From: Pseudomonadota bacterium
GTDB lineage: Bacteria; Pseudomonadota; Alphaproteobacteria; Caulobacterales; Caulobacteraceae
Length of the DNA: 58,792 nt
Direction: 5' to 3'
Assembly: GCA_021816155.1 (NCBI GenBank)
Contig: JAKAZA010000004.1
Coordinates: 1-58,792 of the forward strand
Shown: piece after piece, positions 30,134 to 58,792 of the stretch
Numbering within the stretch: the stretch's first letter is position 1
Layout: the number at the start of each line of letters is the position of its first letter
Program-made: the position numbers and the translations under genes
Notes under the pieces: generated by a model
The model's database searches: none
What the model was told of the DNA's origin: nothing
The model's input: the letters and a program-made list of their open reading frames with translations, nothing else

Positions 30134-30481
30134 TCAGATCGCCCCTGCGCGGCGCTTGCCGAGCAGCAGGACCCTCATGTCGCCCCTGGCGCTGAAACTG
30201 GCCGCGAGCAGGTAGGCCGACAGGAACGGCGATCCTCCGAAGACGCCCAAGAGGCCGAGACCAAGCCCCAAAGCGCTGAAGTCGTGCCGCCAGGCCAGCC
30301 AGAGACCGGACATCAGCAGGAACATGAGGAAGTCGAGGTTGAACTGGCCGGGCCATCCCAGCTTCGCGATGTCGCCGAAGAACACTGCGAACAGGTCCAA
30401 TCCATGCAGGCTGACCGTGATCGATGTGTAGACGGCTACCGTCAGGAACACGGCCGCCAGAAACACGCGGAAGGTGATCAT
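30134..30481 (-). CDS. Four-span membrane protein, second gene of TetR-controlled pair
   Basis: 115-aa membrane protein with about three to four hydrophobic segments (FRVFLAAVFLTVAVYTSIT, DFLMFLLMSGLWLAW, LGLGLGLLGVFGG, LSAYLLAAS). GWPGQFNLDF and AWRHDFS look conserved in type, but I do not recognise the family. Its ATG (30479-30481) overlaps the TGA of the upstream gene, so the two are translationally coupled. Convergent with proS (8-bp gap). Confidence 0.7.
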   Translation of the reverse strand: MITFRVFLAAVFLTVAVYTSITVSLHGLDLFAVFFGDIAKLGWPGQFNLDFLMFLLMSGLWLAWRHDFSALGLGLGLLGVFGGSPFLSAYLLAASFSARGDMRVLLLGKRRAGAI

Positions 30482-30915
30482 GCCCTGACGCTCCGCATGC
30501 CCGGCGCGGCCGCTGCGTTGGCGGCGCGCATCTCGAGGAACATGCAGCGCGCCAACATCGCCATGAGACCGATGCAGCCTGTGCAGGCGATGATTACGAA
30601 CCATGGAACAAGCCGCATGCCGGCCGCTCTGGCGCGCGGGGCGAGCAGGACGAACGCACAGCCCACAGCCAGGAGCAGGTCGAACCAGATCTGGTTGCCC
30701 CAGGCGTTGCGGGTGTGTTCGGCCCAGACGCCCGCTAGGCCCTGTCCTGCGAGCGTGAACGCCGACCACGCCAGGAACATGGCGGCAAGGCCGGCGGGCA
30801 GCATCCAAGCGCTTGGGGCCGTCCCGGCCGAGGGCCGCAGGCAAACGAGAAACCCTGCCGCAACGAAGCCGGCGAGGGCGATTACGGGCAGAGTCTGGTA
30901 AAGCGAGGGTTCCAT
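30478..30915 (-). CDS. Membrane protein, first gene of TetR-controlled pair
   Basis: 145-aa protein with four hydrophobic segments (LPVIALAGFVAAGFLVC, WMLPAGLAAMFLAWSAF, WFDLLLAVGCAFVLLA, LVPWFVIIACTGCIGLMAM). HTRNAWGNQIWFDLL between spans 2 and 3 is the most distinctive stretch. The ATG has GGAGG 5 bases upstream. The gene starts 11 bp from a perfect palindromic operator shared with the divergent tetR, so it is almost certainly under TetR control. Function unknown; an envelope or export role in response to a small ligand is the simplest guess. Confidence 0.72.
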   Translation of the reverse strand: MEPSLYQTLPVIALAGFVAAGFLVCLRPSAGTAPSAWMLPAGLAAMFLAWSAFTLAGQGLAGVWAEHTRNAWGNQIWFDLLLAVGCAFVLLAPRARAAGMRLVPWFVIIACTGCIGLMAMLARCMFLEMRAANAAAAPGMRSVRA

Positions 30916-30944
30916 TGCAGCCTCCGTGTAGCGATCGCTACACT
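30915..30944 (+). promoter_or_regulatory. Candidate tetR promoter
   Basis: TTGCAG (30915-30920) and TACACT (30939-30944) with an 18-base spacer. Operator 1 fills most of the spacer and the -10 edge, and the predicted start point falls at the beginning of operator 2, so bound TetR would block it. Inferred from sequence only. Confidence 0.5.
30926..30943. promoter_or_regulatory. Operator 1 (perfect 18-bp palindrome)
   Basis: GTGTAGCGATCGCTACAC, a perfect 18-bp palindrome in the tetR/membrane-gene divergent region, sharing its 16-bp core with operator 2. Centre-to-centre distance is 25 bp. Size, symmetry and location are typical of TetR-family binding sites. Confidence 0.85.
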
Positions 30945-30968
30945 ACGCGCATGTAGCGATCGCTACAA
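30940..30968 (-). promoter_or_regulatory. Candidate promoter of the two-gene membrane operon
   Basis: On the minus strand, TTGTAG (30968-30963) and TAGTGT (30945-30940) with a 17-base spacer. The -35 lies in operator 2 and the -10 abuts operator 1, and it faces the tetR promoter with overlapping -10 boxes. This arrangement gives simultaneous repression of both directions. Confidence 0.5.
30952..30967. promoter_or_regulatory. Operator 2 (perfect 16-bp palindrome)
   Basis: TGTAGCGATCGCTACA, a perfect palindrome identical to the core of operator 1, ending at the tetR ribosome-binding site (AAGGAG, 30967-30972). Binding here would block both tetR transcription and the -35 of the opposite promoter. 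Confidence 0.85.
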
Positions 30969-30976
30969 GGAGCTTG

Positions 30977-31555
30977 ATGATCTCTCGCGACGAACAGCGC
31001 GCCATCGCCGTCGATCATCTGGCGGACCATCTGCTCCGGCACGGCCTGGCGAAGGCGAGCCTGCGCCAGCTGGCGGCTGCCGCTGGCGTGAGCGACCGGA
31101 TGTTGCTCTACTACTTCGACGACAAGTCCGACGCATTGACCGCGGCGATGGAACGCATCGCCACGCAGCTCGCCGTCCAGCTCGCCATGGCGATCCCGGA
31201 GGGAACCACCATGCCCGCGGCCAGGCTCGTCGCGGTCGCGGCCAAGCTCACGACGCAGACGCACCTGCGTCCCTACATGCGGTTGTGGATCGAGGTTGTG
31301 GCCGCCGCCGCCCGCGGCGAGGATCCTTTCGTGACGGTCGCACAGTCGATGGCGTCGGGCTTCACGCAGTGGATCGAGACGCGCCTCGAGGCCGGTGACG
31401 GCGCCGATCTGCAAGACAGGCGCGCGCTCGCTGCGGCGGTGCTGGCCGTCGTCGACGGACTCGCCCTGCTTGATGTCTGCGCGGGGGAAGCCCTGACCAG
31501 GAGCGCCGCGCGGAGCATCGGCGAAGTGCTCACCGAGCCAGACGCCCCCGCCTGA
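30977..31555 (+). CDS. TetR family transcriptional regulator
   Basis: 192-aa TetR repressor with an N-terminal helix-turn-helix (LAKASLRQLAAAAGVSDRMLLYYFDDKSDAL, residues ~25-55) and a C-terminal helical ligand-binding and dimer domain containing QTHLRPYMRLWIEVVAAA. It is divergent from the two-gene membrane operon. Two palindromes cover the intergenic region, one touching its own ribosome-binding site, so it should repress both itself and the operon until a ligand binds. Start ATG 30977, with an in-frame TTG just before it. Confidence 0.93.
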   Translation: MISRDEQRAIAVDHLADHLLRHGLAKASLRQLAAAAGVSDRMLLYYFDDKSDALTAAMERIATQLAVQLAMAIPEGTTMPAARLVAVAAKLTTQTHLRPYMRLWIEVVAAAARGEDPFVTVAQSMASGFTQWIETRLEAGDGADLQDRRALAAAVLAVVDGLALLDVCAGEALTRSAARSIGEVLTEPDAPA

Positions 31556-31610: not shown

Positions 31611-32390
31611 ATGACAGCAGAGCCCTTCTTCCGGCGCGACGGCGCCCTCTATCAGCCCACCCAGTTCAGCCGCGGACCCTGGAGCCCGACGTCGCTGCAC
31701 GGCCGCGTCGTGGCCGGGCTTCTGGCGCACGTGATCGAGGCCCGTCACGGCGATCCGGATATGATCCCGGCGCGATTCACCATCGACATGTACCGCCTGC
31801 CGGACCTCTCGGCCGCCGAGGTCACCGTGACGCCGATCCGCGAAGGCCACCGGATCAAGGTCATCGACGCCGAGTACATCGTCGGCGGCGTCAGTCACGC
31901 CCGCGCCACCTGCCAGTTCCTGCGCAAGAGCGAGAACCCGGAAGGCAACGTCTGGAGTCCGCCGAACTGGCAGGTTCCGAAGCCCGCCGACATCCCGCCT
32001 CCCGACGATCGCGGCCCGATGGGCGGCATGTGGGCGACACGTCGCATCGAGGGGGATTTCGGCACGTTCGGCCCCGACAAGCGGCTTTGGATGAGCGACT
32101 TCCGCGAACTGGTCGAAGGCGAGGCGCTGAGCCCGTTCGGGCGCGTGGCCCTGGCCGCCGACTTCGCCAGCCCCTTCGCGAACTCGGGCGACAAGGGGCT
32201 CGGCTGGATCAACAGCGACATCACCGTCTACCTGGCCCGCCTGCCCGTGACCGAGTGGGTCGGCTTCGAGGTGAGGAACCACCAGCACGACGCCGGCGTC
32301 TCCGTCGCCGAATGCTGGCTCTACGACGAGCAGGGGCCGATCGGCTCGTCGAGCTGCGCGGCGCTGGCCCAGCGCCGTCGGCCGCAGTGA
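31611..32390 (+). CDS. Acyl-CoA thioesterase family protein (double hotdog)
   Basis: 259-aa protein with a tandem hotdog pattern: N-terminal LHGRVVAGLLAHVIEARHG and FTIDMYRLPDLSAAEVTVTPIREGHRIKVIDAEYIVGG, then a C-terminal half with LAADFASPFANSG and WINSDITVYLARLPVTEWVGFE. This is the thioesterase/acyl-CoA-binding (4HBT_3/TesB-like) family, hydrolysing acyl-CoA thioesters. Its TGA overlaps the GTG start of the following SDR gene, and a TauD-type dioxygenase follows, so the three are likely one catabolic or lipid-modifying unit. Confidence 0.82.
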   Translation: MTAEPFFRRDGALYQPTQFSRGPWSPTSLHGRVVAGLLAHVIEARHGDPDMIPARFTIDMYRLPDLSAAEVTVTPIREGHRIKVIDAEYIVGGVSHARATCQFLRKSENPEGNVWSPPNWQVPKPADIPPPDDRGPMGGMWATRRIEGDFGTFGPDKRLWMSDFRELVEGEALSPFGRVALAADFASPFANSGDKGLGWINSDITVYLARLPVTEWVGFEVRNHQHDAGVSVAECWLYDEQGPIGSSSCAALAQRRRPQ

Positions 32391-33148
32391 GCGCGTTCGA
32401 CCTTTCCGGCCGCGTCGCCCTGGTCACCGGCGGCAACGGCGGGATCGGGCTCGGCATGGCGCGGGGCCTGGCCAAGGCCGGCGCGAGTCTGGTCGTCGCC
32501 GCCCGCGACGCGCGCAAGAGCGCCGCGGCGAAGGCGGAGCTGGAGGCGCTTGGCGCGCCCTGCGAGATCCTCGATGTCGACGTCGCCGACGAGGTGGCGT
32601 GCCGGGCGATGCCGGAGCTGGCGAGGGCCAAGTTCGGGCGCCTCGACGTGCTGGTGAACAACGCCGGCGTGGCGCGCGGCGGGCGCCCGCAGTCACTCTC
32701 GATGGCCGACTGGAACCTGGTGCTGCAGACCAACCTCACGGCGGCGATGGTGGCGAGCCAGGCCGCCTACCCGATCTTCAAGGGCCAGGGCGGCGGCAAG
32801 ATCATCAACATCGGCTCGATGTACGCGATCTTCGGCGCGCCATTCGTTCCGGCCTATGCGGCGAGCAAGGGCGGCGTCATCCAGCTGACCAAGTCGCTCG
32901 CGGCCGCCTGGGCGGTCGACAACATCCAGGTCAACGCCATCCTTCCCGGCTGGATCACCACCGAGATGACCGCCGGCGCCAAGGGCTCGGAGACGTTCAA
33001 CGCCGCCATCGTGGAGCGTACGCCGGCCGGGCGCTGGGGCGAGCCGGAGGACTTCGAGGGCCCGGCGGTGTTCCTCTCGAGCGCGGCCTCGGACTTCGTC
33101 ACTGGCCATTCGCTCGCGGTCGACGGCGGCTTCTCGATCCAGGGCTGA
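32387..33148 (+). CDS. Short-chain dehydrogenase/reductase
   Basis: 253-aa NAD(P)-dependent SDR. TGGNGGIGLGMARGL is the cofactor-binding glycine motif, NNAGVA follows, and Ser (NIGSMYAIFG) with Tyr/Lys in YAASKGG make the catalytic set. C-terminal VTGHSLAVDGGFSIQG is typical. The sequence style is closest to gluconate-5-dehydrogenase-like members, but the substrate is unknown. The start is the GTG at 32387, overlapping the thioesterase stop (GTGA), so the two are translationally coupled; TauD follows 38 bp later. Confidence 0.92.
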   Translation: MSAFDLSGRVALVTGGNGGIGLGMARGLAKAGASLVVAARDARKSAAAKAELEALGAPCEILDVDVADEVACRAMPELARAKFGRLDVLVNNAGVARGGRPQSLSMADWNLVLQTNLTAAMVASQAAYPIFKGQGGGKIINIGSMYAIFGAPFVPAYAASKGGVIQLTKSLAAAWAVDNIQVNAILPGWITTEMTAGAKGSETFNAAIVERTPAGRWGEPEDFEGPAVFLSSAASDFVTGHSLAVDGGFSIQG

Positions 33149-33186
33149 GGCTTTTCGCGGCCGGATTTTGGGCGCAACCTCCGCCC

Positions 33187-34050
33187 ATGAGCCTCGCCGA
33201 CGTCGACCAGACCCTGCACATCGCGCCCAACCCCGGCGGCTTCGGCGCGGAGCTCACCGGGCTCGACCTCTCGCGCCCGCTGCCGCCGGAGACCCTGGCG
33301 CGGGTCAAGGCCGCGTTCCTGGCCCACGGCGTGTTGTGGTTCCCCGACCAGCCGCTGACGCACGACCAGCTGGAGGCGTTCACGCTGCAGCTCGGCCCCT
33401 TCGGCTGGGACCCATACGTCGCGCCGCTCGCGGATCGGCCGCACATCCTCGAGGTCCGCCGCGACCCGGGCGAGACGGCGGCGCCATTCGGCGGCGGCTG
33501 GCACTCCGACTGGAGCTTCCAGGAAACGCCGCCGTCGGCGACCATCCTCCACGCAAAGGTGGTCCCGCCCACGGGCGGCGACACGCTCTACGGCGACGCC
33601 GTCGCCGCCTACGAGGCGCTCTCTCCGGCTTTCCGCGAGATGATCGCGCCGCTGAAGGTTGTGCACTCGGCGGCGCGACCCTATGGGCCGCAGGGCTCCT
33701 TCGCCCGCGAGGAGGCGACCCGGAGTATGAAGATCCTCTCGAGCCCCGAGGCCGAGAAGAGATTCACCCACCCGCTGGTGCGCACGCTGCTCGACGGCCG
33801 CAAGGCGCTGTTCTGCAACCCGGTCTACACGCTCGCCGTCGAAGGCTTCGCGCCGGACGAGAGCGCCGCCCTGCTGAGCTTCCTCTTCAAGCACATGACC
33901 GACGAGCGCTTCGTCTACCGGCACAGGTGGTCGGAAGGCATGCTGACCATGTGGGACAACCGCAGGGCCATCCACCACGCCACAGGCGGCTACGATGGCC
34001 ACCTGCGCGTGATGCACCGCACGACGGTGGCGGGCGACAGGCCCGTCTAG
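33187..34050 (+). CDS. TauD/TfdA family Fe(II)/2-oxoglutarate dioxygenase
   Basis: 287-aa TauD/TfdA dioxygenase. The HxD motif is in GGGWHSDWSF and the distal His in WDNRRAIHHATGGYDG. 2-oxoglutarate-binding Arg is in RVMHRTTVAGDRP. N-terminal PNPGGFGAELTGLDLSRPL is typical. Known members cleave taurine, 2,4-D, sulfonates or sulfate esters, or hydroxylate carnitine precursors; here sulfur scavenging is possible but not shown. Third gene of the thioesterase-SDR-TauD unit and convergent with phoH (12 bp). Confidence 0.9.
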   Translation: MSLADVDQTLHIAPNPGGFGAELTGLDLSRPLPPETLARVKAAFLAHGVLWFPDQPLTHDQLEAFTLQLGPFGWDPYVAPLADRPHILEVRRDPGETAAPFGGGWHSDWSFQETPPSATILHAKVVPPTGGDTLYGDAVAAYEALSPAFREMIAPLKVVHSAARPYGPQGSFAREEATRSMKILSSPEAEKRFTHPLVRTLLDGRKALFCNPVYTLAVEGFAPDESAALLSFLFKHMTDERFVYRHRWSEGMLTMWDNRRAIHHATGGYDGHLRVMHRTTVAGDRPV

Positions 34051-47808: not shown

Positions 47809-48909
47809 GTGACAAGCGTGGCGCGCGACGAAGCGAGCACAGCGAACAGGGTGGCGGGCGAGGTCACTGTGGAGACCGCGCCGCGCCGCGGCCTCATCGA
47901 CTCGATGCGCGCTTGGCGTTGGCCGCTGATGATCGGCGGGCCGCTGCTGCTGCTCGCGGTCGCCGGCTATTTCATCGCCACGTCCGGCAACAGCGAGTCG
48001 ACGGACGACTCATACGTGCAAGCCGCGCGGGTGCCGATCAGCGCCAGCGTCGGCGGCCGCGTCATCGAGGTGGACGTCAAAGACAACCAGATCGTGAAGC
48101 AGGGCCAGGTCCTGTTCAGGCTCGACACGCGTGACCTCGCCACCGCGGTGGCGCAGGCCAAGGCGCACCTGGCCTCGGCGCAGCTGCAGGTGCAGGCGCT
48201 GCGCGCCGCCTACCTCGGCGCCCAGAGCGCGGTGAAGACCGCGCAGGACACGGCGGCCTTCGAGGATCGCGAGGTCGCGCGCCAGCAGGCGCTGATGAAC
48301 GCCGGCGTCGTTTCGCGCGACCAGTACGAGAGAGCCGTGCACAGCGCCGAGGTCGCCCGGCAGGAGGTCGCGACGGCCCAGCAGCAGGCGGCGAAAGCGC
48401 TGGCCGACCTCGGCGGCGCCGAGGTCGGAGTTCAGAGCCAGCCCGCGGTGCAGCAGGCCCAGGCCGCGCTCAACCGGGCGGAGCTGAACTATTCCTACGG
48501 TGCGATCGTCGCCCCTCAGGACGGCGTCGTGACCAAGGTCGATCAGTTGCAGGTCGGGTCGTACATCAATCCGGCGCAGACGCTGTTCTGGCTGGTCGCG
48601 GGCGAGCCGTGGGTCGAGGCGAACTTCAAGGAAAGCCAGTTGGCCAAGATGCGCGTCGGCCAACCCGCGACGATCCACGTCGACGCCTGCCCGGGCAAGG
48701 ACTATCCCGGCCACGTCGCGACGTTCAGCCCGGGCGCCGGCCAGGCGTTCTCGCCGCTGCCGGCGCAGAACGCCACCGGCAACTGGGTCAAGGTGGTGCA
48801 GCGCCTGCCCGTGGAAATCGCGTTCAACCAGCCGCCGCCGGCGGTCTGCGGCGCCGCCGGCCTCAGCGCCAACGTGACCGTCGACGTCCGCTCGGGCGCT
48901 CAGCACTGA
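47809..48909 (+). CDS. emrA: HlyD/EmrA-type membrane fusion protein
   Basis: 366-aa periplasmic adaptor of a tripartite MFS efflux pump. One N-terminal membrane anchor (WPLMIGGPLLLLAVAGYFIA), then the biotinyl-lipoyl-like half STDDSYVQAARVPISASVGGRVIEV, a long alpha-helical hairpin (~residues 120-230) and the second half AIVAPQDGVVTKVDQLQVGSYI. Start is uncertain: GTG 47809 or GTG 47818, with GAAGGA just upstream; a TTG at 47776 is also in frame. Precedes the EmrB gene by 16 bp. Confidence 0.9.
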   Translation: MTSVARDEASTANRVAGEVTVETAPRRGLIDSMRAWRWPLMIGGPLLLLAVAGYFIATSGNSESTDDSYVQAARVPISASVGGRVIEVDVKDNQIVKQGQVLFRLDTRDLATAVAQAKAHLASAQLQVQALRAAYLGAQSAVKTAQDTAAFEDREVARQQALMNAGVVSRDQYERAVHSAEVARQEVATAQQQAAKALADLGGAEVGVQSQPAVQQAQAALNRAELNYSYGAIVAPQDGVVTKVDQLQVGSYINPAQTLFWLVAGEPWVEANFKESQLAKMRVGQPATIHVDACPGKDYPGHVATFSPGAGQAFSPLPAQNATGNWVKVVQRLPVEIAFNQPPPAVCGAAGLSANVTVDVRSGAQH

Positions 48910-48925
48910 CCTGATCCGTTCTCCG

Positions 48926-50449
48926 ATGGCTTCCGCCAAGGACGTCGCGAACCGCGTTCCGATCACCATCGGCATGATGCTGGCGACAGTGATGAACTCG
49001 CTCGACACCACGATCGCCAACGTGGCGCTGCCGCAGATGCGCGGCAGCCTCTCGGCCTCGCCGGACCAGATCACCTGGGTGCTGACCTCCTACATCATCG
49101 CTGCGGCGATCATGACCCCGATGTCCGGATGGCTTTCGGTCCGCGTCGGCCGCAAGCTGACGTTCCTCGTCTCGATCGCAGGGTTCACCATCGCCTCGAT
49201 GCTGTGCGGCGTGGCCACCAGCCTCAGCGAGATCGTGGCCTTTCGCCTGTTGCAGGGCCTGTGCGGCGCGGCGCTGATCCCGCTCTCGCAGGCCGTTCTG
49301 CTCGACATCTATCCGCCGAGCCAGGTCGGCCAGATGATGGCGGTGTGGGGCGCCGGCGCGCTGCTCGGCCCGATCTTCGGGCCGCTGCTCGGCGGCTGGC
49401 TCACCGACAACTTCTCCTGGAACTGGGTCTTTTTCATCAATCTTCCGGTCGGCATCCTCGCCTTCCTGGCGATATCGATCTTCATGTCGCACGACCGGAG
49501 CGGCGAGGCGCGACCGTTCGACTTCCTCGGCTTCGGCGCGCTCGTCGTGTTCATTGGCGGTCTGCAGCTGGTGCTGGACCGCGGCCCGTCGGTCGACTGG
49601 TTCTCGTCGCCCGAGATCTGGACCGAGGCGCTTTGCTCCGTGGCTGGGCTGTACGTCTTTCTGGTGCAGACGCTCACCGCCAAGCACCCGTTCTTCGATC
49701 GGCGGCTCGCGCTCGACCGCAACTTCGTCACCTCCAACCTCTTCGGCTTCTTCATCGGACTCCTGCTGTTCTCGACCATGGCGCTGCTGCCGCCGGTGAT
49801 GCAGGGGGTGATGGGGTATTCGGTGTTCGAGGCCGGGCTCGTGATGATGCCGCGGGGCCTCGGTTCGTTCGCCGCGATGTTCGTGGTGGGGCGCCTGATC
49901 GGACGGATCGATACGCGGCTGATCCTGGGCGCCGGTCTCGGCATCGTGGGCTTCGCGCTTCTCGGCATGAGCCACTTCGATCTGGCCATGGACTCGACGC
50001 CCTTCGTGACCACCGGCATCGTCCAGGGGCTGGGTATCGGCCTGCTGTTCGTCCCGCTCTCGGTGACGGCGTTCGCCACGCTGGAGCCGACTTTGAGGGC
50101 CGAGGGCACCGCGGTCTACACGCTCATCCGCAACATGGGTTCGAGCGTCGGCATCTCGATGATGGAGGCGATCGACACGCATGAGACGTCGGTCGCCCAC
50201 GCAGACATGGCCGCGCACGTCCAGCCCAGCAATCCGGTCTTCGCCGCCGGCGTCCCCTCAGCCATGAGCCCCGGGACCTCCAGCGGGCTCGCGACGCTCA
50301 ACGCCGATATCACCCGCCACGCCTCGATGGTCGCGCTCATAGACGTCTTCCATCTGATGCTGCTGATGATCTTCGTCATCGCTCCGTTGTTGCTCCTCAT
50401 GCGCAAACCGAAGGCCGCGACACCCACCGCGGAGATGGTCGTTGAATAG
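48926..50449 (+). CDS. emrB: EmrB/QacA (DHA2) MFS drug transporter
   Basis: 507-aa inner-membrane proton/drug antiporter with 14 predicted segments. Motifs: ATVMNSLDTTIANVALPQM (motif D1), WVLTSYIIAAAIMTPMSGWLS, RLLQGLCGAALIPLSQAVLLD and the GAGALLGPIFGPLLGGWLTD antiporter motif C. It works with the EmrA adaptor before it and the NodT outer-membrane lipoprotein after it, whose TTG start overlaps its end by 8 bases. Substrates are probably hydrophobic toxicants or uncouplers. Confidence 0.94.
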   Translation: MASAKDVANRVPITIGMMLATVMNSLDTTIANVALPQMRGSLSASPDQITWVLTSYIIAAAIMTPMSGWLSVRVGRKLTFLVSIAGFTIASMLCGVATSLSEIVAFRLLQGLCGAALIPLSQAVLLDIYPPSQVGQMMAVWGAGALLGPIFGPLLGGWLTDNFSWNWVFFINLPVGILAFLAISIFMSHDRSGEARPFDFLGFGALVVFIGGLQLVLDRGPSVDWFSSPEIWTEALCSVAGLYVFLVQTLTAKHPFFDRRLALDRNFVTSNLFGFFIGLLLFSTMALLPPVMQGVMGYSVFEAGLVMMPRGLGSFAAMFVVGRLIGRIDTRLILGAGLGIVGFALLGMSHFDLAMDSTPFVTTGIVQGLGIGLLFVPLSVTAFATLEPTLRAEGTAVYTLIRNMGSSVGISMMEAIDTHETSVAHADMAAHVQPSNPVFAAGVPSAMSPGTSSGLATLNADITRHASMVALIDVFHLMLLMIFVIAPLLLLMRKPKAATPTAEMVVE

Positions 50450-51884
50450 AGCTCGTCCCCTCGCCGCCGTGCTCGTCGCGGCCACCGCGCTCGCCGGCTG
50501 CAAAACCGTTGGCCCGAACTTCGCCCCGCCGGCGCCGCCGACCGTACCGGGCTACCTGATGATAGGGGACACGCCGCCGGCCGCGGCCGAGGTCAGCCTC
50601 GCGCCCGGGGCGCATCCGGCCGGCGCGTGGTGGAAATCGTTCGGTTCGGCGGACCTCGACCGGGTGATGGACCAAGCGCTCTCGGGAAACCAGACCATCG
50701 CGGCGGCCAATGCGTCGCTTGAGCGCGCGCGCCAGCTCGCGATCGCCGCCTACGGCGCGCAATTGCCCCAGGTGGGCGTCAACGCGGGCGCCGAGGCCGA
50801 GCGGATCAACATCGCCTCGCTCGGCTTCTCCGGATTTCCCAACCCGACGATCGGGCTCTACCAGATCGGCGCGACCGTAAGTTACGACGCGGATCTGTTC
50901 GGGGGCCTGCGGCGCGCGACCGAGGCGGCGCGCGCGCGGCTGGCCGGCGAGGCCCGCGAGGCGGACGCCGCCTATCTGACCCTCTCGGGCCAGACCACGC
51001 TCGAGGCGTTGCGGATCGCGACCTTGCGCGCCCAGATCGACGCGGTGAACCAGAGCCTCGCCGACGACCGTCAGGTCATCGACATGGTGCGCGCCGCCGA
51101 GGCGGCTGGCGGCGAGCCGTCGTCGGCCACGGACAGCGGCGAGGCGCAGCTGGCGGCCGACGAGGCGCTGCTGCCGACGCTGCGGCTGGAGCTCGCCGAA
51201 GCGCGCCACGCGCTGGCCGCGCTGGTCGGCCAGGCCCCCGCCAACTGGACCGCGCCCGACTTCGATCTCGCCGGGTTCGCCGAGCCTGGCCCGGTGCCGG
51301 TCAGTCTGCCATCGACGCTGGTGCGCCGCAGGCCGGACATCCTCGCCGCCGAGGCTGGCCTGCACGTCGCGACCGCGGAGGTCGGCGTGGCCACAGCCGC
51401 GCTCTATCCGGACATCGCGCTCTCGGCCAACATCGCGCAGACGGCGATCCCGCCGGCCAACCTCCTGACCTACGGCGCCAGCGGCTGGACGCTCGCCACC
51501 AACTTCACCTATCCGATCTTCAACGGCGGCCGTCTGCGCGCCCAGCAGCGTGCGGCCCAGGCGGCAGCCAATGCGGCGCTCGCCAAGTATCGCACCGCCG
51601 TCCTGACGGCGTTCACTCAAGTCGCCGACGTCATGGAGGCCATCGCGCAGGACGATTCGGAAATCGCCGCGCTGCGCCGCTCCGAGAGCACTGCCGCCAA
51701 AGCGGTCCATGACGACGAAGCGGCCTATCGGCTCGGCGGCGGCCCGTTGCTGCCGGTCCTGGACGACCAGCGGCGGCTCTCCTTCGCGCGCCGCCAGCTC
51801 GCCATGCTCCAGGGCAAGCGCCTGGCCGACATCGCGCAGCTTTACGTAGCGACCGCCGCCGACTGGCGACAGTCGCGCTCCTGA
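50442..51884 (+). CDS. NodT-type outer-membrane efflux lipoprotein (Emr partner)
   Basis: 480-aa TolC-superfamily channel with lipobox LAAVLVAATALAGC (Cys20 approx.) followed by KTVGPNFAPPAPPTVPGY, the RND/MFS-type NodT lead-in. Two outer-membrane-efflux repeats follow (WWKSFGSADLDRVMDQAL and SLPSTLVRRRPDILAAEAGLHVATAEVGVATAALYPDIAL). The TTG at 50442 is the start, with GGAG 7 bases upstream, and it overlaps the emrB stop. It forms the outer-membrane duct for EmrAB. Convergent with another NodT gene 17 bp away. Confidence 0.92.
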   Translation: MNRARPLAAVLVAATALAGCKTVGPNFAPPAPPTVPGYLMIGDTPPAAAEVSLAPGAHPAGAWWKSFGSADLDRVMDQALSGNQTIAAANASLERARQLAIAAYGAQLPQVGVNAGAEAERINIASLGFSGFPNPTIGLYQIGATVSYDADLFGGLRRATEAARARLAGEAREADAAYLTLSGQTTLEALRIATLRAQIDAVNQSLADDRQVIDMVRAAEAAGGEPSSATDSGEAQLAADEALLPTLRLELAEARHALAALVGQAPANWTAPDFDLAGFAEPGPVPVSLPSTLVRRRPDILAAEAGLHVATAEVGVATAALYPDIALSANIAQTAIPPANLLTYGASGWTLATNFTYPIFNGGRLRAQQRAAQAAANAALAKYRTAVLTAFTQVADVMEAIAQDDSEIAALRRSESTAAKAVHDDEAAYRLGGGPLLPVLDDQRRLSFARRQLAMLQGKRLADIAQLYVATAADWRQSRS

Positions 51885-51901
51885 GCGCGCGCGAGGGCGG
51901 C

Positions 51902-53353
51902 TCACCTCCCCTTGAGATTGGCCTCGTTCCAGCCGCCGCCGAGCGCGACAATCAGATCGACGGTCGTGGTCAGGCGGCTGGCTTCCAGTTGCAGCTCGGC
52001 GTTGTGGGCGGCCAGGGCCGTGGCCTGGGCGACGACGACGCTCGTGTAGTCCACCGTGCCGGCGTTGTATTCGTTGAGCGTGACACGCACTGCGTCGTCG
52101 GCCGACCTCACCGAAGCCTGAAGGTCGGGCTGCTCGGCCGCCAGCACGCGCTGGGCCGCCAGGTTGTCCTCTACCTGGCCGAAGGCGGTCAGGGCGGTCT
52201 GGCGATAATTGGCGACCGCCTCGTTGTAGAACGCGCGCGCGGCCCTGACCTGGGCGACGGTGAGGCCGGCGTTGAAGACCGTCTCGACCGCGCTCGCGCC
52301 GGCGTTCCAGAAGAACGTCTGCGGGTTGAACAGGTGGGAGATCGCCTGCGTTTCCGTTCCGCCCGCGCCCGTCAGCGTCACGCTCGGGAAGAACCCGGCG
52401 GTGGCGACGCCGATCTCCGCGCTGGCGGCGGCGGCCTGCCGCTCCGCGGCGGCGACGTCGGGGCGACGCTGCAGCAAGGTCGAAGGCAGGCCCGGCGGCA
52501 CGTCGACCGGCTTCAGCGTCCACGGCGCGGGCGGGATCGAGAGGTCGGCCGGCCGGCCGATCAGAACGGCGATGGCGTCCTCCATCTGGGCGCGCTGCTG
52601 GCCGAGCGCAGTGGCGGCCGCGCGCTCGCTGGTGAGCTGGGTTTCCGCCTGGTCGACGTCGGACTGCGCCGCGTTGCCGGCGAGGAACTTGTTCCGGGTG
52701 ATCGTGAGCGACGTCTCGTAGGCCTTCACCGTGGCGTCGTCGATGCGCTTCTCCTCGTCGAGCTGCCGCAGCGCGATGTAGTCCGCCGCGAGCTCCATCT
52801 GAGCCGACAGCCGCGCGTTGTTGAGGAGCGCCAGGTTCGCCTGGGCGTTGGCGCGGGCGTTCTCGATCAGCCTGCGCACCCTGCCCCAGAGGTCAGGCTC
52901 CCAGGTGGCGCCGAGCTCCATCGTGTAGATCGGGATCGGTCTGGCGGCGCCGGCGCTGCCAAGCACCACGCCGGACGCGCCGACGGTTCGGCCGCCGCTG
53001 CTGAAGGTGACCCTCGAGTCGCCGGTGCCGCTCAGCGTCGGCCAGAGCGCCGCCTCCTGCTCAGACAGGATGGCGCGGGCCTGCTGGTAGGCGGCGAGGT
53101 CGGCGGCCAGGGTCTGGTTGTTGACCACGACCCTCTGCTCGAGGTCGTTCAGCACGGGGTCGTCGAACAGAGTCCACCAGTCGGTCTTCACCACCGCGTC
53201 GGCGTTGGGATCGGCAGGGGTCCAGCCCTGGATCTCCCGGTACTGGTTGGACGCAGGCGTCGGCGCCGAGGGACGCTTGTAGTTGGGTCCGACCTCGCAA
53301 CCGGTGAGGACGGTGGCGGAGACGAGAAGGGCGGTCAGGAGGGGTCTGGGCAT
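51902..53353 (-). CDS. NodT-type outer-membrane efflux lipoprotein (RND partner)
   Basis: 483-aa TolC-superfamily lipoprotein with lipobox LLVSATVLTGC and EVGPNYKRPSAP. Repeats appear at WWTLFDDPVLNDLEQRVVVNNQTL and PSTLLQRRPDVAAAERQAAAASAEIGVATAGFFPSVTL. Third visible gene of the RND operon, 12 bases after the MdtC-like gene. Only distantly similar in detail to the convergent NodT protein, so the two look like separate paralogues serving different pumps and not a recent duplication. Confidence 0.92.
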   Translation of the reverse strand: MPRPLLTALLVSATVLTGCEVGPNYKRPSAPTPASNQYREIQGWTPADPNADAVVKTDWWTLFDDPVLNDLEQRVVVNNQTLAADLAAYQQARAILSEQEAALWPTLSGTGDSRVTFSSGGRTVGASGVVLGSAGAARPIPIYTMELGATWEPDLWGRVRRLIENARANAQANLALLNNARLSAQMELAADYIALRQLDEEKRIDDATVKAYETSLTITRNKFLAGNAAQSDVDQAETQLTSERAAATALGQQRAQMEDAIAVLIGRPADLSIPPAPWTLKPVDVPPGLPSTLLQRRPDVAAAERQAAAASAEIGVATAGFFPSVTLTGAGGTETQAISHLFNPQTFFWNAGASAVETVFNAGLTVAQVRAARAFYNEAVANYRQTALTAFGQVEDNLAAQRVLAAEQPDLQASVRSADDAVRVTLNEYNAGTVDYTSVVVAQATALAAHNAELQLEASRLTTTVDLIVALGGGWNEANLKGR

Positions 53354-53365
53354 GGGTCGTGACTT

Positions 53366-56300
53366 TCACGCCGCGGGGGCGGAGGCGGGAGGAGCAGCAA
53401 GGTTGCGGCGGAAGACGTCGTCGGGACGACGGAAGCGATCCAGATAGAGGTAGACGACCGGGGTCGTCAAAAGCGTGATCACCTGGCTGACGAGGAGGCC
53501 GCCGATGATGGCGACCCCGAGGGGCTGGCGGAGTTCCGAGCCCTCGCCCCAGCCGACCGCGAGCGGCACGGCGCCGAGGATCGCGGCGAAGGTTGTCATC
53601 ATGATCGGCCGGAAGCGGGTCAGCGCGGCCTGGCGGATGGCGTCGCGGGCGCTCAACCCCTGTGTGCGCTCCGCCACGAGGGCGAAGTCGATCATCATGA
53701 TCGCGTTCTTCTTCACGATGCCGATCAGGAGAATGATCCCAATGAACGCGATCAGCGTGAACTGAATCTTGAAGATGATCAGCGCGACGAACGCCCCCAC
53801 CCCCGCCGAGGGCAGCGTGGAAAGCACGGTCAGCGGGTGGATGTAGCTCTCGTAGAGCACGCCGAGCACCAGGTAGATCACTACGATCGCCGCCGCGATC
53901 AGCGGCCCCAGGCTGCCCAGCAACTGCTGGAAGGCGAGCGCGTTGCCGGCGTAGCGGCCGTGAACGGCGGCGGGCATGCCGATCGAAGCCTGCGCTCGTG
54001 CGATCGCGGCGGTGGCGTCGCTCAGCGAGTAACCCTCGGCCAGGTTGAACGAGATGGTGGTCGCCGGCTGGGTGTCCTGGTGGTTCACGGCGGTCGGCGC
54101 CGAGGAGTCGGCCCAGACGGCGAAGGCCGAGAGCGGCGCCTCCGCCGCGCTGGCGCCGGATACGGCGACGCCGGTCGCGGCTGCGAGGACCGGCGGCCCG
54201 CCGGGGCCCGTGACCGGCGTCGCCTGCCCGGTGGCCACGCTCGCCGCCGCGCCGGTTCCCCCGGTTCCGGCCGCGTAGGCCGCGGTCAGCGGCGTGGCGT
54301 TGGCGAGCGGCGCCTTGACAAGGCCGCCGGTCTCGCTCGCCAGGGCCGCCGACAGGGGCGTGACGTTCGCCAAGGCGCTGCTGACGCCGATCGGCGTCGC
54401 CCCTCGAGCGGCCGCCGACCCCGGCGAGGCCGGGGCGGCGGCGCCTGTGGAGACGTAGACGTCCTTCAGCACGGTGGGGTCGGTGCTGTACTGGGGCGCG
54501 ACCTCCATCACCACGTGGTACTGGTTGACGTCTTCGTAGATCGTCGAGGCGTCGCGCTGCCCGAAGGCGTCGTAGAGCGTGTTGTCGATCTGGGTGTTGT
54601 TGAGGCCGAGCGCGGTCGCCTTGTCGCGGTTCACCGTGATGAAGCTCTGCAGGCCGTGGTCCTGCTGGTCGCTGTTCACGTCCTCGAGCTCCCATTGCGA
54701 GTTCATCGCCGTGGTCAGCCGCCTCGCCCATGTGCGCAGGTCCGTCAGGTGGTCGGCCTCGAGCGTGTACTGGTAGGTCGCGTTCGACTGCCGCCCGCCG
54801 ATGCGCAGGTCCTGCACCGGCGCCAGGAACAGGCTCGCGCCGGTCACCCTGGCCAGCTGCGGACGCAGCCGGGTGATCACGTCGTCGGTCGACCCTTTGC
54901 GCACACCTTTGGGCGCGAGCGAGGTGATCATGAACGCGCTCGCCGCGCCGCGCCCCCCGCCGAGGTAGGCGACCACGGTTGAGATGTCCTTGTCCCGGCC
55001 GATGATGCCGACGAACTGCAGCAGCCGCTTCTCGGTGATCTGGAACGAGCTCGACTGGTCGGCCTGCAGACCGCCGATCATCAGCCCGGTGTCTTCCTCC
55101 GGGAAGAATCCCTTCTGGACGATGCTGAACAGATAGAAGTTGAGCGCGATGGTGGCGACGAGGATGACGATGATCACCGGGCCGGAATCGAGCGCCGCGT
55201 CCAGCGCGCGCTCGTAGAGCCCGCGCATCCAGTTCACAGAGCCCTCGGATAGGCGCCGGAGCCAGCCTCTGCGCTCGCCGGGCCGCGGCCGGCCCACGAG
55301 ATAGGCGGCCATCATCGGCGTGGTGGTGAGCGACACGACCAGCGAGATCACCACGGCCACCGACAGAGTCACGGCGAACTCGCGGAAGATGCGGCCGTAG
55401 ATACCACCCATCAGCAGGATTGGGATGAAGACGGCGATCAGCGAGACGCTGATCGAGATCACGGTGAAGCCGACCTCCTGCGCGCCCCGGATCGCGGCGG
55501 CGAAGCGGTCCATTCCGCCCTCGACGTGGCGGGTGATGTTCTCCAGCACCACGATTGCGTCGTCGACCACGAACCCGGTCGAGATCGTCAGCGCCATCAG
55601 CGAGAGGTTGTCGAGCGAAAAGCCAAGCAGGAACATCACGCCGAGCGTGCCGAGGAGCGACACGGTGACCGCCACGCTCGGAATGAGCACTGCGCGCCCG
55701 TTCATCAGGAACACGGCCACCACGCCCACGACCAGCAAGGTGGCGACCAGCACCGTGCGCTCGACGTCCGAGAGCGCGGCGCGGATCGTCGTGGTCCGGT
55801 CCACTGCGACCGACATCTGGATATCCTGCGGCAGCGCGGCGGCGACCGCGGGCAGGCGGGCCTTCACCGCGTCGACCGTCGAGATGATGTTGGCGCCCGG
55901 CTGGCGGCTGATGGTCACGATCACCGCCGGCGAGGTCACCAGCTTGCCGTTCGCCTTGTGGACGAAGACGCCGTGGTTGTGCACGTCCTCGACGCCGTCG
56001 ATCACCTGGGCGACGTCCGAGAGGCGCACGGCGGAGCCCGCGCGGTAGGCGATCACCAGCGGCGCATAGTCGGCGGCGGTCCTGCCCGCATCGTTCGTGT
56101 AGATCTGGAGCCGCAGGCCGCCGTCGGCGATGACGCCCTTGGGCCGGTCGGCGTTGGCCGACTGCAGCGCCGCGCGGACGTCCTCGAGGCCGATGCCATA
56201 GTGGGCGAGTTGCATCGGGTTGAGTTCGACCCGCACCGCCGGCAGGGACGCGCCGTTGACGTCGACGCTGCCCACGCCGTTCACCTGGCTCAGCTGCTGC

Positions 56301-56788
56301 TGAACAATGTTGGAGGCTGCGTCGTAGATCTGCCCCGGGGTTCGCGTCGCCGAGGTGAGCGCCAGCACCAGGATCGGCGAGTCGGCCGGGTTGATCTTGC
56401 GATAGGTGGGGTTGGTCCTGAGCGTGACCGGCAGGTCGACGCGGGAAGCGTTGATCGCCGCCTGCACGTCCCGCGCGGCGCCGTCGATGTCGCGGTCGAG
56501 TCCGAACTGCAGCGTGATGTTGGTCAGGCCGACGCGGCTCGACGAGGTCATCTCGGTGACGTCGGAGATCAGGCCGAGGCGCCGCTCGAGCGGGGTGGCG
56601 ACGCTCGTGGCCATGGTCTCCGGGCTAGCCCCGGGCAATTGCGCCTGCACCGAGATGGTCGGGAAGTCGACCTGCGGCAGCGGCGAGACGGGCAGGTTGA
56701 AGAAGGCGCCTACTCCGGCCAGCGCCATGCCGATGGTCAGGAGGATGGCGCCAATCGGTCGGCGGACGAAGGGCGCCGAGAGGTTCAT
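53366..56788 (-). CDS. mdtC: RND multidrug efflux transporter, MdtC-like
   Basis: 1140-aa inner-membrane RND pump of the MdtB/MdtC (HAE1-like) type. N-terminal [51 protein letters not shown], and the proton-relay [18 protein letters not shown] (Asp409, Asp410). [14 protein letters not shown] and [20 protein letters not shown] are C-terminal family marks. It is about 115 residues longer than the E. coli protein because of a low-complexity insertion at ~781-884. ATG overlaps the upstream MdtB-like stop (ATGA). Likely works as a heteromultimer with it. Confidence 0.95.
54137..54448 (-). repeat. Ala/Gly/Thr-rich degenerate-repeat insertion in the MdtC-like pump
   Basis: Codons ~781-884 of the MdtC-like gene encode a stretch made almost only of Ala, Gly, Thr, Ser, Pro and Val. 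It contains repeated units of the form (A/V)TP(L/I/V)(S/T)[43 protein letters not shown]. It lies between VYVSTG and [10 protein letters not shown], where relatives have a short loop in the second large periplasmic domain. The unit resembles the conserved VPLSAFA motif at its end, suggesting growth by slipped copying of that site. Confidence 0.7.
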
Positions 56789-58792
56789 TCGGCGGCGCCG
56801 CCCTGCGGCGCGGCCTCGTCGAGCCGAACATCCGACTCGCCCTTGCGCAGGCTGACGCTGAGACCGAAGCGGCGGCCGAGCCGGTCGAACCAGAGGTAGA
56901 TCACCGGCGTCGTGAAGAGGGTCAGCATCTGGCTGACGATCAGGCCGCCGAAGATGCTGACGCCCAGCGGCCGCCGCAGCTCCGAGCCCTCGCCCCAGCC
57001 CAGCATCAGTGGCAGCGCCGCGAAGAGCGCGGCCAGCGTCGTCATGATGATCGGGCGGAAGCGTAGGATGGCCGCCTGCCGGATCGCCTCTTGCGGACTC
57101 TTGCCCTCCACGCGTTCGGCGTCGAGGGCGAAGTCGATCATCATGATCGCGTTCTTCTTCACGATCCCGATGAGGAGGATGATGCCGATGACGCCGATCA
57201 CGCCGAGGTCGGAGCCCGACAACATCAGCGCCACCAGCGCGCCGACGCCGGCCGAGGGCAGCGTGGAGAGGATCGTGACTGGGTGGATGTAACTTTCGTA
57301 GAGCACGCCCAGCACGATGTAGACGCAGACGATCGCCGCCAGGATCAGCCACAGCTCGTTGGTGAGCGAGGCCTGGTAGGCGTTCGCCGCGCCTAGGAAG
57401 GTCGTCGTCACCACCCCCGGCGCGTGGAGCTTGGCTTCATCGTCGCGGATCGCGTTGACGGCCTCTCCGAGCGAGACGTTCGGCGCGGTGTCGAACGAGA
57501 TGTTGGCGGCCGGGAACTGGGCCACGTGGTCGATCTGCAGAGGCCCGGTTCTGGTCTCGACGCGGCTGAAGGCGCCGAGCGGCGTCGGCGCCCCGCTGCC
57601 AGCGCTCATGTAGAGCGTCGAGAGCCCGGCCGGTGTGTTGATCTGCGCCGGATCCGCCTCGAGGATCACGCGGTACTGGTTCGAATCCGTGAAGATGGTC
57701 GAGATGATGCGCTGACCGAAGGCGTCGTAGAGCGCGTCGTCCACCGTGGAAGGCGTGATCGCCAGGCGCGCGGCGGTGTCGCGGTCGATGTCGACGTAGG
57801 CGGTGAGCCCGTGGTCCTGAACATCGGCGCCGACGTCGCGCAGGCGCGGGTCCTTCGACAACGCGCCCACGATATTGGCCGCCCAGGTGTCCACGGTGGC
57901 CTGGTCGGGCCCCTCCAGCGAGAACGCGTACTGGGTGCGGCCGATGTTGGCGTCGATGGTCAGGTCCTGGACCGGCTGGAGGTAGAGCGTCATGCCGGGC
58001 ACGCTCGCCGCTCGCTGGCGCAGCCGCTCGAGGATCGCGTTCTGCGCCGATGTGCGCTTGTCGAGCGGCGTGAGGTTGATCAGGTAGCGGCCGGTGTTCA
58101 GCGTCGTGTTGGAGCCGTCGACCCCGACGTAGCTCGTGAGGCTTGAAACGTCGGGGTCCTTGAGCAGCTGCGCGGCCACCTGCTGCTGCAGCTCGCTCAT
58201 CCGGCTGAAGGAGACCGACTGACCGGCCACCGTCACGCCCTGGACGAGGCCAGTGTCCTGCGTCGGAAAGAGACCCTTAGGGATCAGGAAATAGAGCACC
58301 ACCGTCAGCGCAAGCGTGGCCAGCGCCACCATAAGGGTCGCGGTCTGGCGCCGAAGCACCCAGTCGAGCCAGACGCCGTAGCGCTCGATCACCTGATCGA
58401 TGAAGGCCGCGACGCGCTTGCCGAACGCGGACTCGTTGCGCTCGCCATGTGGCCGCAGCCATAGCGCCGACAGGGTCGGCGTCAGCGTCAGCGAGACGAA
58501 AGCGGAGATCACGATGGTCGCCGCCAGCGTCACCGCGAACTCGCGGAACAGGCGTCCCACCACGTCGCCCATGAACAGGAGCGGGATCAGCACCGCGATC
58601 AGCGAGACGGTCAGCGAGATGATCGTGAAGCCGATCTGCTCGGAGCCCTTCAGCGCCGCCATCAGCGGCGTCTCGCCCGCTTCGATGTAGCGCGAGATGT
58701 TCTCGATCATGACGATGGCGTCGTCGACCACGAAGCCGGTGGCGATGGTCAGCGCCATCAGCGTCAGGTTGTTGAGCGAGTAGCCCAGCAGG
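56785..58792 (-). CDS. mdtB: RND multidrug efflux transporter, MdtB-like (5' part outside window)
   Basis: C-terminal ~669 residues of an MdtB-like RND pump. Visible: proton-relay [44 protein letters not shown], the second periplasmic domain with [26 protein letters not shown], and [21 protein letters not shown] near the end. The frame has no start inside the window; the true 5' end lies beyond the right edge. Its TGA overlaps the MdtC-like ATG. An MdtA-type adaptor is expected just upstream, outside the window. Confidence 0.95.

Follow-up and report, generated by a model that had tools for sequence, protein, structure and literature searches.

Paired TGTAGC-N4-GCTACA sites accompany a TetR-family regulator, small membrane proteins and, in relatives, a limonene-epoxide-hydrolase-family gene

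We observed that two copies of a palindromic element, TGTAGC-N4-GCTACA, lie between a tetR gene and two small membrane protein genes in a 58,792-nucleotide stretch of Caulobacteraceae DNA (hereafter the window), and that this pair of sites accompanies the same TetR clade in related genomes. Judged from sequence, the locus very probably encodes an autoregulated TetR repressor of the membrane operon that a ligand would release; in relatives, a gene of the limonene epoxide hydrolase (LEH) family would also be under its control.

Layout of the locus and its paired sites

The features of the locus are as follows.

30977..31555, + strand: tetR (P0003), a TetR-family regulator of 192 aa, Pfam TetR_N and TetR_C_6 above cut-offs
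30478..30915, − strand: first membrane gene (P0002), 145 aa, distantly DUF2834-like (below cut-off), kept in relatives
30134..30481, − strand: second membrane gene (P0001), 115 aa, no Pfam or NCBIfam family, with relatives under the same operator pair
30926..30943, no strand: candidate operator 1, an 18-bp palindrome, GTGTAGCGATCGCTACAC, with the conserved element at 30927-30942
30952..30967, no strand: candidate operator 2, a 16-bp palindrome, TGTAGCGATCGCTACA, from reading the sequence
30967..30972, + strand: AAGGAG, putative ribosome-binding sequence for tetR, touching operator 2
30921..30925 (written 30925-30921), − strand: GGAGG, putative ribosome-binding sequence for the first membrane gene, abutting operator 1

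The intergenic gap (30916-30976, 61 bp) runs between the ATG of tetR (30977, + strand) and that of P0002 (30915, − strand), and 34 of its 61 bp are palindrome sequence. The tetR start agrees with that of an aligned homologue in G417. The ATG of P0001 overlaps the P0002 stop (ATGA), so both membrane genes are probably read from one transcript. The coordinates in an earlier note on this DNA span tetR and P0002 and do not reach P0001 (30134-30481). Its description of two perfect palindromes, of 18 and 16 bp, with a shared 16-bp core and centres 25 bp apart is borne out by direct reading of the sequence. Downstream of tetR on the + strand (31611-34050) are acyl-CoA thioesterase-like, short-chain dehydrogenase and TauD-family genes, named by Pfam. 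By eye, no such row immediately follows tetR in the gene lists of relatives, and in one relative (L003) a thioesterase-looking gene lies some 2 kb off on the other side. Also by eye, 47818-58791 looks like two efflux systems: a membrane fusion protein, an MFS pump and an outer-membrane factor, followed on the opposite strand by a further outer-membrane factor with two RND pumps.

We then compared the sites with those of relatives. In 27 aligned divergent loci, chosen with at most one mismatch per site, a pair occupies the position equivalent to operators 1 and 2 with a spacing of 25-29 bp, and GTAG and GCTAC are invariant in all 54 sites. The conserved form is thus a paired TGTAGC-N4-GCTACA, mostly 25-29 bp apart, with extremes of 20 bp (L109) and 31-32 bp (L022, L098 and L099). 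This variation, which reaches 4 bp among the aligned loci and is larger elsewhere, would argue against an obligatory contact between dimers on one helix face. The core of the site is purine-N-N-pyrimidine and is palindromic in 8 of the 54 aligned sites. The earlier note had called the two palindromes identical, which is true in the window, where both have GATC cores; but neither identity nor perfection is required in relatives, and since palindromic cores are so rare there, the identity of the two window palindromes is incidental.

The element is rare in its own genome (3.6 Mb in 188 contigs, 94% complete). A palindrome scan allowing three mismatches returned these two palindromes as the sole places in the window, whereas two or more sites arose in none of 100 dinucleotide shuffles of the window (mean 0.11). 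Genome-wide, TGTAGCN4GCTACA with at most one mismatch has 2 sites, both in the gap, compared to 29 for the reversed-pattern control. The search for further copies of the 16-mer that the earlier note had proposed gave, with up to two mismatches, 2 sites against 2 for the backwards control.

P0003 itself has the N-terminal helix-turn-helix of the TetR family (PF00440 TetR_N, 28.8 bits; cut-off 24) and a BetI-type C-terminal domain (27.2 bits; cut-off 27), and, as is characteristic of the family, a palindromic operator-like site lies at its own gene, upstream of tetR in the 27 aligned loci. All 26 aligned TetR homologues share the stretch SDRMLLYYF of the recognition region without change, which is consistent with the unvarying half-site. 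In a tree of 26 rows, homologues partnered with P0001, P0002 or LEH form one supported group of 12 (98/94). A more distant TetR outside this tree (G952) is nevertheless paired with a P0002-like gene, so there has probably been more than one exchange of partners.

Co-occurrence of the pair with the TetR clade and the genes it serves

To follow the pair across the family, we searched 390 genomes for two exact sites with a gap of 7-18 bases and for TetR homologues at E ≤1e-25. The pair was present in 28 genomes and the TetR homologue in 30, with both in 27 (Fisher p 3e-37, counting genomes as independent despite shared ancestry), while a backwards-pattern control was found in 0 of 390. The single genome with a pair and no TetR match (G703) has an assembly that is 85% complete, and its pair precedes a P0002-like gene. 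Three family genomes have the TetR homologue without an exact pair. One of them (G603) has one mismatch in each site; in another (G682) the P0002-like and tetR matches abut, so that the assembly lacks the gap and with it the pair. In the third (G387), as in G121 and G225, a TetR homologue is present and no site was found. The distribution of the locus is patchy: within the window's genus, TetR occurs in 4 of 16 genomes and the pair in 3, and a search of 60 relatives turned up P0002 in 2.

In a class-wide spread of 385 genomes, TetR was found in 5 and the pair (gap 7-16) in 2, both among those 5. Here the backwards control, with 7 places in 5 of the 385 genomes, was commoner than the pair, and the pattern alone is therefore no proof. 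TetR homologues were also found in Novosphingobium, Acetobacteraceae and Rhodospirillales assemblies; there, as in the 30 family genomes, we inspected the region upstream of tetR. In all, 42 homologues were examined closely (30 from the family, four from the class, four from named assemblies and four from the phylum), and in 36 of them a pair lies no more than about 2 kb from tetR when one mismatch per site is allowed. The six without a nearby pair are G387, G682, G121 and G225, together with G772, whose pair is on another contig, and G123, where one site is exact and the other carries two mismatches. Seven weak TetR matches from the contig search (L007-L013) had no site.

As an independent test of this association, a profile built from the TetR alignment was run against 339 phylum genomes at E ≤1e-28. 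It returned the window and four others, all in the same class, and each of these four has an operator pair adjoining a gene from one of the same families of membrane proteins, which is DUF5367-like in G429, unnamed four-TM in G1032 and G1060, and P0002-like in G952. Three of the pairs are exact in the GTAGC-N4-GCTAC core, and the pair in G1032 has one site with one mismatch.

Each of the 30 exact pairs in the 28 pair-bearing family genomes has, at a distance of 3-39 bp by projected starts, a gene of one of six kinds, namely P0002-like (15), P0001-like (7), DUF5367-like (4), unnamed four-TM (2), LEH (1) and ABM-domain (1), the last two assigned by Pfam, and tetR is on the opposite side of the pair in 22 of the 30. 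An LEH gene is under the pair in 11 of the 28 genomes, after a membrane gene in ten and alone in G681. There (L080, 3624-4083) a second exact pair precedes the lone LEH gene, while the tetR locus carries membrane genes. G702 likewise holds a second pair, here in front of a P0002-like gene. In G702 (L081) and G734 (L083), a pair with P0001-like and LEH genes lies about 1.1-1.5 kb from tetR, and in G772 (L093) the pair precedes P0001-like and LEH genes with tetR on a different contig; tetR in these three genomes may have lost its own operators. Pairs away from tetR (G681, G702 and G772), or in a genome without it (G703), still serve the same genes, and the link thus outlasts rearrangement.

Two further loci were seen along the way. 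In G091, which belongs to a different family of the class, a second pair has a MAPEG gene on one side and, on the other, a four-TM gene followed by a cytochrome P450 (L084, 6836-8240), and no tetR homologue was matched within the surrounding 13.5 kb. In G779 (L033), the P0001-like gene behind the pair matches in part, at 30%, and may be frame-shifted or mis-assembled.

Membrane proteins and the LEH link

The earlier note had assigned the two membrane proteins to no recognised family. This holds for P0001, which matches nothing in Pfam or NCBIfam, but not entirely for P0002, a protein with four hydropathy windows that has a sub-threshold match to DUF2834 (PF11196; 16.7 bits, cut-off 22.9). Its relative in G702 reaches 21.6 bits, and both align over most of the model while remaining under the cut-off; in the P0002 family as a whole, 2 of 12 members match DUF2834 at E ≤0.1 (best 0.00026). 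A network-based guess, in the accessible text of one report, gives DUF2834 a role in glycosyl compound metabolism (PMC6155114). A further membrane protein of relatives matches PF17329 (DUF5367) in 2 of 7 members (best E 4.1e-05). This gives partial support to DUF5367-like as a working name for this family.

Profile comparison of six pairs of membrane families, with shallow alignments, gave no significant homology, and a stretch near W-x-x-Q in which P0001 and P0002 look alike was insignificant by the same method. It is therefore from common control that we infer a common function. No transporter-family match was obtained for the membrane proteins scanned. AlphaFold models were weak (pLDDT 64.9 for P0002 from 3 sequences and 55.8 for P0001 from 2), and Foldseek with the P0002 model returned nothing below E 0.4. 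A solved-structure search with the P0002 family had chlorophyll-binding proteins as its best match (E 0.03), which we discarded. Single relatives of P0001 gave weak Pfam matches to GT87 (E 0.0045) and PsaL (E 0.23).

Two LEH members scanned from relatives match PF07858 with 179.1 and 118.6 bits (cut-off 24; E 4.9e-53 and 2.6e-34). Among solved structures the best match is 5aih, in an alignment where the R-x-D and RDYFD stretches line up and are kept; these stretches presumably hold the catalytic residues. The relatives thus carry members of the limonene-1,2-epoxide hydrolase family (PF07858; 5aih, 1nww, 2bng) under the pair, whereas the window locus has none. The single LEH match in the window genome (G000:C125:37685-38035; L095, and L101 4674-5042) has no such site nearby and, by eye, sits directly after an acyl-CoA synthetase-like gene.

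That LEH genes share this operator pair speaks for lipophilic or electrophilic compounds, and it slightly narrows what the earlier note had called an undefined envelope function. Our best guess at the inducer, taken from this link, would be a lipophilic epoxide or a related compound. We tentatively suggest, as a possibility that we hold with some doubt, that the TetR clade, across several families of one class, represents a so far unrecognised way of responding to a lipophilic electrophile: membrane families without detectable homology to one another (DUF2834-like, DUF5367-like and two unnamed) would be interchangeable under one operator, with or without LEH. If this is true, the operator is a handle for assigning function to these membrane families.

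Proposed mechanism, alternatives and known systems

In the proposed mechanism, a TetR dimer would sit on each of the two TGTAGC-N4-GCTACA operators, one where the membrane operon begins and one where tetR begins, and both directions would thus be shut together. Because the operators touch both ribosome-binding-like sequences, bound TetR could block initiation or elongation on either side. A small molecule, probably lipophilic, would release TetR, and the two small membrane proteins would be made until the compound was gone. The output would probably be tolerance to, or removal of, a membrane-partitioning and perhaps epoxide-bearing compound, a reading suggested by the LEH enzyme or other small membrane proteins that follow the same pair in relatives. 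Binding, repression, induction and promoter positions are each things we infer; the biochemical role of the membrane proteins and the ligand class are guesses.

The promoters that the earlier note had drawn in each direction (N18 and N17 spacers) found no support, as a sigma-70 consensus scan of 30800-31100 returned no promoter. With so much of the gap palindromic and each palindrome abutting a ribosome-binding-like sequence, any promoter inside it would overlap an operator. In the 27 aligned loci the spacer shows a weakly conserved TA, which is no more than a hint of one in relatives. The switch over divergent membrane genes proposed in that note is supported as to its TetR-family regulator and its paired operator-like sites, the pair tracking this TetR clade across many genomes, and not as to its promoters.

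We considered whether the palindromes could act as RNA, forming leader hairpins that steer translation or decay, and find this highly improbable. At each site a stem of six pairs closed by a four-base loop can form right before a start codon, and as RNA the window's gap can fold into one long hairpin through pairing of its two identical palindromes (−35 kcal/mol, z −7.0). However, the arms show no covariation across 82 sites from 41 loci, a set whose selection at one arm mismatch or fewer favours unchanged arms: columns 2-5 are invariant, and changes in the outer pair are one-sided in 11 sites and two-sided in a single site. Watson-Crick pairing of the innermost core columns is seen in just 21 of the 82 sites, the core that allows full site-site pairing in the window differs in most relatives, and a TetR homologue accompanies the pair in 27 of 28 genomes. 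This last count also bears on the idea that a different regulator binds the pair and TetR is a passenger, or that TetR is an activator, which we regard as quite unlikely. TetR genes often adjoin genes outside their control, and some pairs lie apart from tetR (1.1-1.5 kb away in G702 and G734, on another contig in G772) or occur as second pairs elsewhere (G681 and G702). Against this, the clade and the pair coincide in 27 of 30 genomes counted from TetR, the invariant recognition region is matched by an invariant half-site, and all four homologues found by profile alone have the pair.

Drug efflux is the main rival to the lipophilic-epoxide reading. Small multidrug transporters are small four-TM proteins and have a known layout under TetR control that the present locus resembles, and the sequence relatives of P0003 that have structures include MtrR, NalD, TtgR and AcrR; the membrane proteins would then be transporter-like, the inducer a drug or dye, and LEH incidental. 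But the membrane proteins scanned match no transporter family, and these four regulators match the N-terminal half only, with unnamed TetR proteins matching better. We consider efflux unlikely, and retain a TetR repressor released by a lipophilic compound as the preferred reading.

Autorepressing TetR switches are common, and the mechanism proposed here is ordinary; the conserved operator and its regulon are apparently undescribed. In a literature search with few subscription journals in its scope, we found no description of the operator, no link of DUF2834 or DUF5367 to TetR, no mention of DUF5367, and no paper with limonene epoxide hydrolase and the TetR family together; among the matches listed for the half-site letters with TetR, none was relevant by title. 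What is new is the conserved operator with its regulon, by which membrane families of uncharacterised function, some of them weakly resembling DUF2834 or DUF5367, are linked to a single signal. So specific an operator can serve as a label, marking one locus in the window genome and several membrane families plus LEH in relatives, and the function of these families thereby becomes testable through one inducer screen.

The locus shares with TetR/TetA a TetR gene divergent from membrane genes and two palindromic operators in a short common gap. Its operator is different, however, its membrane proteins are not known transporters, and the operators of relatives also serve an LEH gene and several membrane families. 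With BetI, the choline-responsive TetR repressor, P0003 shares the BetI-type C-terminal domain and an NCBIfam match over residues 15-181, but it scores 50 bits where the TIGR03384 equivalog cut-off is 201.3, and by eye no bet genes adjoin it. According to the accessible text of its report, EdcR of Caenibius tardaugens is a TetR-family repressor with a steroid inducer that controls estrogen degradation genes; its palindromic operator overlaps promoters and negative autoregulation is proposed, while the operator itself, TnnCnnTACnAnTnGTAnnGnnA, is unlike the TGTAGC-N4-GCTACA of the window (PMC8700777).
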